Origin: a virus
Strand: one strand, 5' to 3'
Virus record (IMG/VR): IMGVR_UViG_3300027747_000993
Coordinates: 1 to 30,411 of that record
Length of the DNA stretch: 30,411 nt
Positions within the stretch are counted from its first letter, which is position 1. Every line of letters starts with the position of its first letter. This document shows positions 14,949 to 21,478 of the stretch, piece after piece. The notes beneath the pieces were generated by a model. That model worked only from the letters and a program-made list of their open reading frames with translations. It was not told where the DNA came from and searched no databases. Position numbers and translations under genes: made by a program.

Positions 14949-15462
14949 ACTTGAAATTGCTGACCGTTTTGATTCTATGAATCGGGTGGTTGAGGAATTA
15001 TTAAAAGGAAAGAACCCTAAGGACATTGCTGTTCAATTAAACATGTCCCGCGCTTTGGTATTAGAGTTTATTAGCGAGTGGAAACAAATAATCCATAATG
15101 ATACTAATATTCATGCGCGGGCTAGAGAAGCATTGGCTGGTGCAGATCAGCATTATGCCATGATTATTGAAAAGGCATGGGAGACTGTTGAGCAGGCAGA
15201 CACAAACCAGCAACTTAGTGTAAAGACTCAGGCTCTTAAACTTGTTGCAGATACAGAACAAAAACGTTTGGATATGTTGAATAAGGCTGGCGTGCTAGAG
15301 AATAATGAATTAGCAGAGCAACTTATGGAAACAGAACGTAAGCAAAAGATTCTTGTAGAAATACTTAAAGATGTTACTTCAAATTGTGAGCGTTGTAAGT
15401 TTGAAGTTTCCCGCCGACTGTCAGAAGTTACTGGTAAAGTTGAGGCTGTGGCGGTAGACTGA
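14941..15462 (+). CDS. terS: Probable terminase small subunit (HTH protein)
   Basis: TTG at 14941 is preferred: it overlaps the previous stop by eight bases and has AGGAAA ahead. A GTG at 14905 in the same frame is an alternative. The roughly 173-residue protein starts with a helix, then N-P-K-D-I-A-V-Q-L-N-M-S-R-A-L-V-L-E-F as a helix-turn-helix, then long charged helices that could form a coiled-coil oligomer. The last 30 residues hold two Cys. Small terminase subunits recognise phage DNA and hand it to the large subunit. The direct neighbour is the large terminase with a one-base overlap, the main basis for this call. Confidence 0.75.
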   Translation: MSELEIADRFDSMNRVVEELLKGKNPKDIAVQLNMSRALVLEFISEWKQIIHNDTNIHARAREALAGADQHYAMIIEKAWETVEQADTNQQLSVKTQALKLVADTEQKRLDMLNKAGVLENNELAEQLMETERKQKILVEILKDVTSNCERCKFEVSRRLSEVTGKVEAVAVD

Positions 15463-17300
15463 TGTTTGACGAGTTTCTTGAAGCGTTAGACGGTAACGAA
15501 TTTGCTGAGAAACCAGTCTCTGTTGAAGAGTTTGTATCATCAAAGAATTTTCTTTCCCTCCCACCATTGTCTGACTATCAGTATCAGATGATTAAGGCTT
15601 CTACGCAAATCTATAAGAAAGAAACTCTTGTGCATTTGTTTGGTGCAGAAGAAGGTCATAAGCGTTGGAAACAAACTTGTAATGAAGTTATCTTCCAGTT
15701 AGGTAAGGGCAGCGGTAAAGATTATATTTCCACCATCGCCTGTGCCTATGTTGTGTATTTGCTTCTGTGCTTAAATGATCCTGCTAAATATTATGGCAAG
15801 CCTCCCGGTGATAGCATCGACATTATCAATATTGCTATTAACGCAGTGCAGGCTAACCGTGTGTTCTTCAAAGGCTTCACTAATAGAATTGAGCGGTCGC
15901 CGTGGTTTCAAGGAAAATATAATGCTAAAGCAAACAGCATAGAATTTGATAAAGCAATTACAGTTCACTCAGGTCACTCTCAAAGAGAATCGTGGGAGGG
16001 CTACAACGTATTGGTGGTGTTCCTTGACGAGATTTCCGGCTTCGATATGGATTCAACCAGCGGTAATGAACAGGCTAAGACTGCTGGCGCTATCTATCGA
16101 ATGTATCGTGCTTCTGTTGATTCTCGTTTCCCCGACTATGGTAAAGTAGTTTTACTTTCATTCCCTCGTTTCAAGAATGACTTTATCCAACAACGCTACT
16201 CTGAAGTTGTTGATCAGGTAGAAGTTGTTGTGAGAGAACACACATTTAAAATTGATCCCGATCTGCCAGACGACATTGAACAAAACAAGTTTACTATTGA
16301 GTGGATGGAAGATCATATTATTACCTATAAGGTTCCGCGAGTTTATGCGCTCAAGAGGCCAACGTGGGATATTAATCCTACCCGTAGTATTGAAGATTTT
16401 ACTATTTCTTTTTATACCGACCCTGTAGATGCCCTGTCGCGCTTTGCCTGTATGCCTCCAGATGCTCAGGATGCGTTCTTCCGTTCCCGTGAAAAGATTG
16501 AGCGGGCGTTCAGTGATCTTAATTTAGCCCTAGCAGATGATCATAGATTCCAAGATTGGTTTACTCCAGAGGAAGACAAAGTGTACTTTGTCCACGTTGA
16601 CCTTGCACAGAAGCATGACCACTGTGCTGTAGCCCTTGCCCACGTAGACAAGTGGGTTAAGATAAAGGTTGGCAATCAAACTAAAGAAGCAGCACCATTT
16701 GTTGTTGTAGATGCTGTGCGTTGGTGGACTCCAAAGTCTACTCAAAGCGTTGACTTCACAGAGGTTAAGGATTATATTACTTCTCTCAAGCATCGCGGGT
16801 TTAATATTAAGGCCGTCACGTTTGACCGCTGGAACTCCCATGACATGATGCAACAATTAAAGGCATATGGAATGAACGCAGAAATTCTTTCCGTGGCTAA
16901 GAAGCACTATGAAGACATGGCGTTGGTTGTTATGGAGGAGCGTCTTCATGGACCGCATCATCAATTGCTTGTAGACGAATTGTTACAACTTAGAATTGTT
17001 AAAGATAAAGTTGATCACCCTCGCAAGGGTTCTAAGGATTTGGCTGACGCAGTTTGTGGAGCGGTATATAATGCGATTAGCCGTACCGCTACAGATATGA
17101 ATCGTGAGGTAGAAATTCATTCTTATGACTATGAAGATGAAAAAGAAGAGATGGAAGCACTTGAAAGAAAACAGAACAACACGATAGAATTTAATCCTAG
17201 CAAAAGGGAAATGCCCGATTACCTGCAAGAATTTTTTGGGGGTCGGGACGACGATGAAGATGGTGGCATGAGATTCGTTGATAATTTTACAATGTTATGA
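15462..17300 (+). CDS. terL: Terminase large subunit
   Basis: This 612-residue protein has an ATPase domain with a variant Walker A, G-K-G-S-G-K-D (residues 81-87), and Walker B V-L-V-V-F-L-D-E-I-S with D189 and E190. The C-terminal nuclease has V-H-V-D-L-A-Q-K-H-D with D380, F-D-R-W-N-S-H-D with D455 and K-G-S-K-D-L-A-D-A-V with D529. The three acidic residues fit the RNase H-like metal site of TerL. It drives ATP-dependent packaging into proheads and cuts the DNA. Its size is somewhat above the usual 450-600 residues. It ends 3 bases before a tRNA. Confidence 0.93.
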   Translation: MFDEFLEALDGNEFAEKPVSVEEFVSSKNFLSLPPLSDYQYQMIKASTQIYKKETLVHLFGAEEGHKRWKQTCNEVIFQLGKGSGKDYISTIACAYVVYLLLCLNDPAKYYGKPPGDSIDIINIAINAVQANRVFFKGFTNRIERSPWFQGKYNAKANSIEFDKAITVHSGHSQRESWEGYNVLVVFLDEISGFDMDSTSGNEQAKTAGAIYRMYRASVDSRFPDYGKVVLLSFPRFKNDFIQQRYSEVVDQVEVVVREHTFKIDPDLPDDIEQNKFTIEWMEDHIITYKVPRVYALKRPTWDINPTRSIEDFTISFYTDPVDALSRFACMPPDAQDAFFRSREKIERAFSDLNLALADDHRFQDWFTPEEDKVYFVHVDLAQKHDHCAVALAHVDKWVKIKVGNQTKEAAPFVVVDAVRWWTPKSTQSVDFTEVKDYITSLKHRGFNIKAVTFDRWNSHDMMQQLKAYGMNAEILSVAKKHYEDMALVVMEERLHGPHHQLLVDELLQLRIVKDKVDHPRKGSKDLADAVCGAVYNAISRTATDMNREVEIHSYDYEDEKEEMEALERKQNNTIEFNPSKREMPDYLQEFFGGRDDDEDGGMRFVDNFTML

Positions 17301-17303
17301 TTC

Positions 17304-17376
17304 GGAGCCATAGCATAATGGTTAATGCGTCCGCCTTATATGCGGTTGACTGTAGGTTCAAATCCTACTGGCTCTA
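17304..17376 (+). tRNA. tRNA-Ile (anticodon UAU)
   Basis: The cloverleaf reads acceptor GGAGCCA with TGGCTCT (one G-T wobble), D-stem GCAT/ATGC, anticodon stem CCGC/GCGG (with a T-T mismatch at the base), loop CTTATAT with anticodon TAT, T-stem GTAGG/CCTAC and loop TTCAAAT, and discriminator A. Anticodon UAU reads AUA codons. No CCA is encoded. It begins three bases after the large-terminase stop. Confidence 0.9.
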
Positions 17377-17378
17377 CT

Positions 17379-17516
17379 GGTTGGAGGTAGGAATCCTTAG
17401 GAATGGGTATAGTTACGAATACTCCCGAGCGATTTTTAAGAGTCTGCAAGTTGGGACAGTTGAAGTCCAGCGAAATATCTTGTGCAGAGAAAAGGAAATC
17501 GGACCTACCTCCAACC
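17379..17516 (+). ncRNA. Candidate structured RNA with a 13-bp closing stem
   Basis: Two bases after the tRNA-Ile, GGTTGGAGGTAGG (17379-17391) pairs perfectly with CCTACCTCCAACC (17504-17516). The enclosed 112 bases contain further nested pairing. A hairpin with GGGTAT at 17405-17410 pairs with ATAC-T-CC at 17419-17425. CGATTT (17430-17435) pairs with AAATCG (17496-17501). TCTGCA (17443-17448) pairs with TGCAGA (17483-17488). GGAC (17454-17457) pairs with GTCC (17465-17468). No matching family is recalled; it is not a tRNA. The only long frame across it also runs through the tRNA and is unlikely to be a gene. Function is unknown. Confidence 0.55.
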
Positions 17517-17546
17517 TCCTATGTTAAACTATAAGGGTTGATATTA

Positions 17547-17798
17547 ATGTCTGAAGAGAAACACAAAATGAGATTGTCTGCTCATCAAGAGGGGGACAGG
17601 ACAGTAATTGTTGCTGCTACAGATGATGCCCAAATGATTTTAAAGTATACAGATGGGGGCAAGGGTCAGATCGAAGCCCTCGTTGATTCTGGTGAAAAGA
17701 TTCTTGAGTACATGTGGAATGATTATTTAATTAGACGTAACTTTACTCAACAGTTAGAAAACGATTTAGATAAATGGCTAGGCGATGGCGGAAAATAA
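17547..17798 (+). CDS. Hypothetical phage protein
   Basis: The ATG at 17547 is chosen over a TTG three codons earlier; AAGGG lies about ten bases ahead. The product has 83 residues and starts M-S-E-E-K-H-K-M-R-L-S-A-H. The middle is beta-rich (R-T-V-I-V-A-A-T and Q-M-I-L-K-Y-T-D-G-G-K-G-Q-I-E-A-L), then a helix. The C-terminal third is helical and charged (R-N-F-T-Q-Q-L-E-N-D-L-D-K-W-L). No family is recognised and no Cys or membrane segment is present. It is the only gene between the folded RNA and the next tRNAs. Confidence 0.6.
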   Translation: MSEEKHKMRLSAHQEGDRTVIVAATDDAQMILKYTDGGKGQIEALVDSGEKILEYMWNDYLIRRNFTQQLENDLDKWLGDGGK

Positions 17799-21006: not shown

Positions 21007-21028
21007 AATTAAACTTATAAGGATGATA

Positions 21029-21478
21029 ATGGGACATTTAGTAAACGAACTCAAAATTCTTCAGGCAAATGATTTTGTGATGTATTCACAGGCTCATGGA
21101 TATCACTGGAATGTTGAGGGTATGCTATTCAAAGAATTGCACGCTTTCTTTCTAGAGATTTATGAAGATGTTTATGAGCAAGTCGATACCATTTCAGAAA
21201 ATATTCTTAAATTAGGCGAAAAGGCTCCGTTTGGGGCTATGCAGTGGTTAAATAATTCCACTATCAGGATTAACGATGGTCTTGATCTTGATCCCGTTAC
21301 TATGTTAAAGTGTCTTGCAGAAACAAATGCTTTTCTAATTGATCAGTTAAAGCATGTTTTTGAAGTTGCAGATATGGAAAATGAGCAGGGTATCGCTAAT
21401 TATATTGCTGAAAGAATCGACAAGCATCAGTTCTGGAACTGGCAGTTAACTGCAACTTTGAAAATAGTTGTAGTTTAA
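21029..21478 (+). CDS. dps: Dps/ferritin-like protein
   Basis: The ATG at 21029 is preferred over one two codons upstream because AAGG lies six bases before it. The 149-residue product has the Dps signature A-H-G-Y-H-W-N-V-E-G with H26, L-H at about 38, and D53 and E57 in V-D-T-I-S-E-N-I. These correspond to the ferroxidase residues of Dps (H31, D58, E62 in E. coli numbering, from memory). Dps proteins form 12-mers that oxidise and store iron and protect DNA. In a phage it may shield the DNA or be packaged. It stands between the M15 endolysin and a lysozyme-like gene. Confidence 0.82.
   Translation: MGHLVNELKILQANDFVMYSQAHGYHWNVEGMLFKELHAFFLEIYEDVYEQVDTISENILKLGEKAPFGAMQWLNNSTIRINDGLDLDPVTMLKCLAETNAFLIDQLKHVFEVADMENEQGIANYIAERIDKHQFWNWQLTATLKIVVV

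Follow-up and report, generated by a model that had tools for sequence, protein, structure and literature searches.

An RNA gene beside tRNA-Ile

We analysed a 30,411-nt stretch of virus DNA, positions 1 to 30,411 of IMG/VR record IMGVR_UViG_3300027747_000993 (hereafter the window), in which a 138-nt element lies at 17379–17516 on the + strand. An earlier interpretation made from the letters alone (the sequence-only reading) had placed this element next to tRNA-Ile and before a separate gene. Indeed, tRNA-Ile ends at 17377, one base from the closing stem, and the next gene starts at 17538 as a mechanical open reading frame or at an in-frame ATG at 17547. The features at the locus are listed below; pairing with rRNA is predicted from complementarity to the E. 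coli 23S rRNA gene rrlB.

15462–17300, + strand: terminase large subunit (TerL) gene, the upstream landmark (PHROG matches, tblastn and the search of RNA-bearing contigs)
17304–17377, + strand: tRNA-Ile(UAU), with one base between it and the RNA (ARAGORN, Rfam tRNA)
17379–17516, + strand: RNA gene, 138 nt (covariance model R1, 44.2 bits, E about 1e-7; folding z −3.7)
17379–17391, + strand: closing stem P1, 5' strand (perfect 13-bp helix; covariation at all 12 pairs of the family model)
17395–17402, + strand: putative antisense block 1a, CCUUAGGA, complementary to 23S rRNA 1923–1930 (8 Watson–Crick pairs)
17407–17422, + strand: predicted P2 hairpin presenting an AGUUAC loop, its 5' side being part of block 1b (from the sequence)
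17408–17417, + strand: putative antisense block 1b, UAUAGUUACG, complementary to 23S rRNA 1909–1918, the helix 69 loop (10 Watson–Crick pairs; conserved family-wide)
17480–17487, + strand: putative antisense block 2, UUGUGCAG, complementary to 23S rRNA 1962–1969 (independent window test)
17504–17516, + strand: closing stem P1, 3' strand (fold and family covariation)

The perfect 13-bp closing stem around 112 nt, on which the sequence-only reading was built, was confirmed: GGTTGGAGGTAGG (17379–17391) pairs with CCTACCTCCAACC (17504–17516), and 68 distinct family members retain the stem, mostly with different stem sequences, which goes far beyond chance. The folding check proposed along with it was likewise passed, as the minimum free energy (MFE) of the 138 nt was −47.2 kcal/mol, against −32.0 ± 4.1 kcal/mol for 200 dinucleotide shuffles (z −3.7), none of which folded equally well. 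The nested helices CGAUUU/AAAUCG and UCUGCA/UGCAGA are present in the MFE structure; however, the multibranch interior is not what the family conserves. These helices are common only to two near-identical relatives (L004 and L084), and this interior of the window RNA shows no conservation across the family.

A search of Rfam 15 gave no match over 17379–17516, even at E ≤ 10, and the homologues L017 and L055 were likewise without a meaningful match. ARAGORN and Rfam 15 detected only the neighbouring tRNAs, and neither a cloverleaf nor a tRNA-like domain with a T-arm was found, so that the exclusion of tRNA and tmRNA held. Together with the strong covariation across homologues described below, the absence of an Rfam match bore out the proposal of an undescribed structured RNA.

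A covarying family in one actinophage lineage

The element belongs to an unannotated RNA family of at least 68 distinct sequences in more than 100 IMG/VR contigs from a single freshwater actinophage lineage. Terminase relatives in IMG/VR carry the same element after TerL, with the common core CTTAGGATG[GT]TATAGTTAC inside a differently sequenced closing stem. Scanning IMG/VR with this core pattern gave 97 stretches, and further patterns gave 13 and 22. Covariance model R1, built from 35 sequences (alignment A1), then detected 95 loci at E < 0.001, which together with a few weaker ones comprise 68 distinct RNAs. Exactly one strong match was present in 15 of 20 long records, and one more had a single weak match that was raised to E = 1e-6 by model R2; the RNA is present once per genome. 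Model R2 also recovered divergent forms of 77–82 nt, the smallest of which (L034 and L222) contain little beyond P1, block 1 and GUGCAG.

All of the 20 RNA-bearing contigs tested encode a TerL homologue with 64–77% identity, and the terminase of the window is closest, among cultured phages, to those of Streptomyces phages of Stanwilliamsviridae. Since WhiB genes are present in the contigs (13 of the 14 long ones), the hosts are inferred to be actinobacteria. Outside the family, a sister TerL group (L056–L083) gave no significant covariance-model match, and a blastn search of cultured phages with four family members returned nothing at the sensitivity used. The Streptomyces relatives Gilson and Paradiddles were considered as carriers and rejected, having no significant match with R1 or R2. 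With the sensitivity applied here, the core pattern was found only once in 85,462 prokaryote species, as a chance match in a Cellulosilyticum MAG. A different, GC-richer contig pair (L214 and L221) contains GTGCAG-TTA-CTTAGGATGGTATAGTTAC, with both antisense motifs side by side, without a closing stem and possibly within coding sequence.

The check for compensatory changes that the sequence-only reading had called for was strongly passed by the homologues aligned with the covariance model. All 12 modelled P1 pairs changed on both sides, 98.4% of P1 cells were paired, and the stem length ranged over 12–14 bp. The whole structure was 91% paired, versus 25–43% when slid by 1–3 columns, and its covariation score exceeded those of all 500 shuffles. 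The alignment was fitted to the structure under test; the ungapped stem is already plain in the raw sequences. P2 columns were 95.7% paired with little covariation, the AGUUAC loop being mostly unpaired in the ensemble, and P3 and P4 were weakly supported (73–90% paired). Because the P1 cells contain far more G·U than A·C combinations (30 versus 2), the + strand is the RNA.

The 5' end and the neighbouring genes

Of 73 distinct loci, 51 have a tRNA directly before the RNA, usually at a distance of 0–2 nt, which fits the earlier suggestion that the RNA is cut out of the tRNA transcript. No tRNA was annotated in 21 loci; in two of these (L087 and L122) a visible tRNA end had been missed by ARAGORN, and its 3' end, gggttcgaatccctaattattca, is found two or three bases upstream of the RNA. 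Among the remaining 19, 15 matched at least 10 of the 12 positions of TTGACA-N15–19-TATAAT with the −10 box ending 6–8 nt before P1, a sigma70 promoter score reached by 0.7% of random 40-mers. A start of the RNA at P1, following a tRNA or from its own putative promoter, is strongly indicated, and the G·U pairs and predicted promoters together fix the + strand. Perfect consensus sigma70 promoters (TTGACA-N18-TATAAT) were seen upstream of the RNA in L024, L125, L136, L139, L148 and L174, and such promoters would be useful to predict early transcription in these phages.

Downstream, the RNA is followed by a tRNA within 2–12 nt or by varied genes. A cis-regulatory element was considered and rejected, since the downstream gene varies and the small 86-aa gene after the RNA was seen close to it at just 3 of 68 loci. 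This varied downstream content points to a trans-acting RNA rather than to the leader of one gene. A discrete trans-acting RNA gene should possess its own start or a processed end and no fixed downstream gene; the element meets this description, which argues for such a gene as far as can be judged without transcript data. A gene for a DNA-binding protein (phrog_3636; 21023–21478 in the window) was observed in the vicinity of the RNA at 30 of 68 loci, and in two close relatives an HNH-type endonuclease gene directly follows the RNA (L005, 2960–3460; L006, 7061–7555).

Complementarity to helices 69–71 of 23S rRNA

One further property of the RNA, an antisense match to 23S rRNA, escaped the sequence-only reading: read as its reverse complement, the invariant core CUUAGGAUG-UUAUAGUUAC corresponds to the universal 23S rRNA segment 1910–1930, comprising helix 69 and the next strand. 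The rRNA reference was that of E. coli, not the 23S rRNA of an actinobacterial host, and the idea of complementarity arose post hoc, whereas the controls did not. The consensus core formed 18 of 19 Watson–Crick pairs with one bulge (score 18.5 of 19), which was reached neither by 3000 shuffles (maximum 16.5) nor by 6000 random phage 19-mers (maximum 17.0). The GG-UGUA variant of the core scored 17.0, and since this was equalled by 4 of the 6000 random 19-mers, individual variants stand out less than the consensus does.

In typical members, RNA positions 26–37 are complementary to 23S 1910–1921 and positions 18–26 to 1922–1930; in the window RNA, positions 30–39 match 1909–1918 and positions 17–24 match 1923–1930. 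A helix 69 match of 7–12 Watson–Crick pairs beginning at 1909 or 1910 was among the best stretches listed for 67 of the 68 RNAs, and the second stretch, to 1922–1930, was present in nearly all 68. These counts are not independent, as the family members share ancestry. All 16 invariant columns of alignment A1 fall inside the antisense blocks. Within block 1, 10 of 17 positions are invariant and several others change from A to G opposite an rRNA U, so that a G·U pair is kept; the positions facing 23S 1924 and 1918 tolerate mismatches. In L053 and its kin, RNA positions 49–57 carry a second stretch, CCGUUAUAG, which is also complementary to 23S 1914–1922.

A second block, GCCAUU..GUGCAG, is likewise conserved, and its complement in 23S rRNA lies close by, at 1955–1976. 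Indeed, when block 1 was left out, 23S 1951–2000, which adjoins the block-1 target, ranked first among about 175 windows of 16S and 23S rRNA (summed over 23 representatives). The smallest forms, L034 and L222, retain block 2; in four members of 77–80 nt (L013, L099, L121 and L129) it is not clearly present, and its scores are poor in a few families. The 23S segment 1905–1945 is identical in representatives of six phyla (E. coli, Deinococcus, Hymenobacter, Mycoplasmopsis, Lysinibacillus and Fusobacterium), and the block-2 target shows small changes among them.

Duplex energies were less informative. The core and helix 69 gave −22 to −28 kcal/mol, versus −8 kcal/mol for shuffled cores; however, whole-RNA energies against all rRNA windows were not distinct from shuffles, with chance duplexes down to −25 kcal/mol. 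The case thus rests on conservation, namely on the core and the second block, and not on energy, since chance duplexes of the whole RNA are equally strong. Lenient local alignment of whole RNAs with rRNA was uninformative, and under stricter scoring whole RNAs taken one by one reached significance only in part.

The conserved core invites two readings without any ribosomal target. If the 23S rDNA were the source of the core, a piece of it might have been retained as a DNA-level homing or recombination site. The region concerned contains the I-CeuI homing site, and in L005 and L006 the RNA is followed by HNH-type genes. We regard such a relic as barely plausible, because what is conserved is chiefly the set of letters that can pair with rRNA, the block order is permuted, P1 shows RNA-type covariation with a G·U bias, and the predicted promoters would start transcripts exactly at P1. 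Alternatively, the core may be kept for the fold of the RNA itself or for a protein, the 23S match being coincidental; other stable RNAs lie beside tRNAs in phages, namely T4 rnaC and rnaD, whose function is unknown (PMC9697503). We consider this coincidence distinctly unlikely, since no random 19-mer out of 6000 matched rRNA equally well and the second block independently indicates the adjacent 23S segment.

Proposed function

The target segments lie on the intersubunit face of the large subunit, where helix 69 forms bridge B2a. That no letters of the RNA are invariant except those complementary to this site, the large subunit's most conserved contact point, suggests that these phages target the ribosome by RNA pairing, the pairing itself being inferred. 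We lean, with only slightly more confidence than doubt, towards a phage antisense RNA that clamps helices 69–71 on free or maturing 50S subunits; this rests on sequence, in the absence of expression or binding data. More broadly, we consider it reasonably probable that this phage-encoded structured RNA arrests, tunes or guards the ribosome by pairing with the universal helices 69–71. The family, its covarying stem, its strand and its complementarity were directly observed; inhibition, shielding or guiding of the ribosome follows only from the inferred pairing and is the least certain.

In the proposed mechanism, the 5' end would be set by 3' processing of the upstream tRNA or by the RNA's own sigma70 promoter, and the 12–14 bp stem would lock both ends while the interior presents two antisense elements. 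The 5' element (CUUAGGA and UAUAGUUAC) would pair with helix 69 and the following strand (23S 1909–1930), and the 3' element (GCCAUU..GUGCAG) with 23S 1955–1976. Since the targets are on the intersubunit face, pairing would be limited to free 50S subunits or 50S precursors, with the 30S subunit excluded. Clamping of these helices during infection may hold back subunit joining or late 50S maturation and thereby tune the host ribosome pool. Mutations in helix 69 prevent translation or 70S formation (PMC1190176), and the bridge mutations A1919G (H69) and A1960G (H71) lead to degradation of mutant and wild-type ribosomes (PMC4289901). Several points speak against a clamp: part of block 1 is engaged in P2 and helix 69, once mature, has a fold of its own, so that strand exchange would be needed, and the order of the two blocks is permuted compared with that of a simple antisense RNA. 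Furthermore, plain inhibition would require timing or partial action, because the phage depends on ribosomes.

The same pairing might instead shield helices 69–71 of free 50S subunits from a host ribosome-cutting toxin or defence nuclease. The two blocks flank 23S 1932–1955, which contains UUCCU at 1939–1943, and M. tuberculosis MazF6 was reported to cut the 23S rRNA of dissociated ribosomes (PMC3968373); the title of a reference cited there places this cleavage at the ribosomal A site. The hosts are likewise actinobacteria, as judged from the WhiB genes. However, these hosts are not known to have such a toxin and the blocks do not extend over the UUCCU stretch itself, which leaves the shield possible but unlikely.

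Should the pairing prove real, RNA by itself would be a means for phages to influence the host ribosome, through a target that would be hard for the bacterium to change, since helix 69 is identical across the phyla checked. The RNA would then be a natural probe for bridge B2a, and the identity of the target region in E. coli makes the idea testable there at once.

Comparison with known RNAs

T4 rnaC (species 1, 139 nt) and rnaD (species 2, 119 nt) resemble the phage RNA in size, in being structured and in lying end to end with tRNA genes. Inspection of their sequences and folds, however, revealed neither a common motif nor a common architecture: the fold of rnaC includes a T-arm-like hairpin, rnaD lacks excess stability, and a coarse energy scan found no rRNA complementarity above shuffles in either. 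They were thus rejected as homologues or rRNA binders, location beside tRNA genes being the only shared criterion. Unexplained RNAs of phage tRNA clusters have remained an open question since rnaC and rnaD, and pairing with rRNA, if real, would provide a function for at least some of them.

The archaeal and eukaryotic C/D and H/ACA s(no)RNAs share with the phage RNA short elements antisense to conserved rRNA within a structured RNA. A snoRNA-like guide would bring an enzyme to helices 69–71 for modification or cutting; two antisense blocks on either side of the target are what guide RNAs have, and the region is rich in modified bases. The phage RNA, in contrast, is encoded by a phage of bacteria, which are not known to possess guide RNP proteins, and it has permuted blocks and no known partner protein. 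Neither C/D or H/ACA box motifs nor the pocket geometry were met, with no Rfam guide-RNA model matching and the block order opposite to that of the H/ACA pocket; TROVE protein was found in none of 14 contigs and no dedicated neighbour gene is conserved. We therefore hold a guide to be very unlikely.

Bacterial Y RNAs (YrlA), which act with Ro60/Rsr, likewise end in a long stem, are phage-borne and occur in or near tRNA clusters, and Ro acts on 23S rRNA in Deinococcus. The Y RNA reading was rejected, as there was no Rfam match and TROVE was absent from all 14 RNA-bearing freshwater contigs, which are possibly incomplete; Y RNAs need Ro. TROVE/Ro60 genes were observed in Gilson (L181; NC_048742, 68923–69786) and Paradiddles (L182; MF347637, 81719–82639), at a distance of some 5–12 kb from TerL and within or close to the tRNA cluster; the RNA was not found in these two phages. 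TROVE and the RNA could be two different ways to act on rRNA or misfolded RNA at one locus.

Like bacterial and phage antisense small RNAs, the phage RNA is proposed to act in trans by base pairing, but its target would be rRNA and not mRNA. A phage RNA complementary to 23S rRNA had no precedent in Rfam 15 or in the literature searched, the coverage of which is incomplete. Taken jointly with the ribosome-pairing reading, the RNA is, in our cautious judgement, probably a kind of viral RNA not described before.
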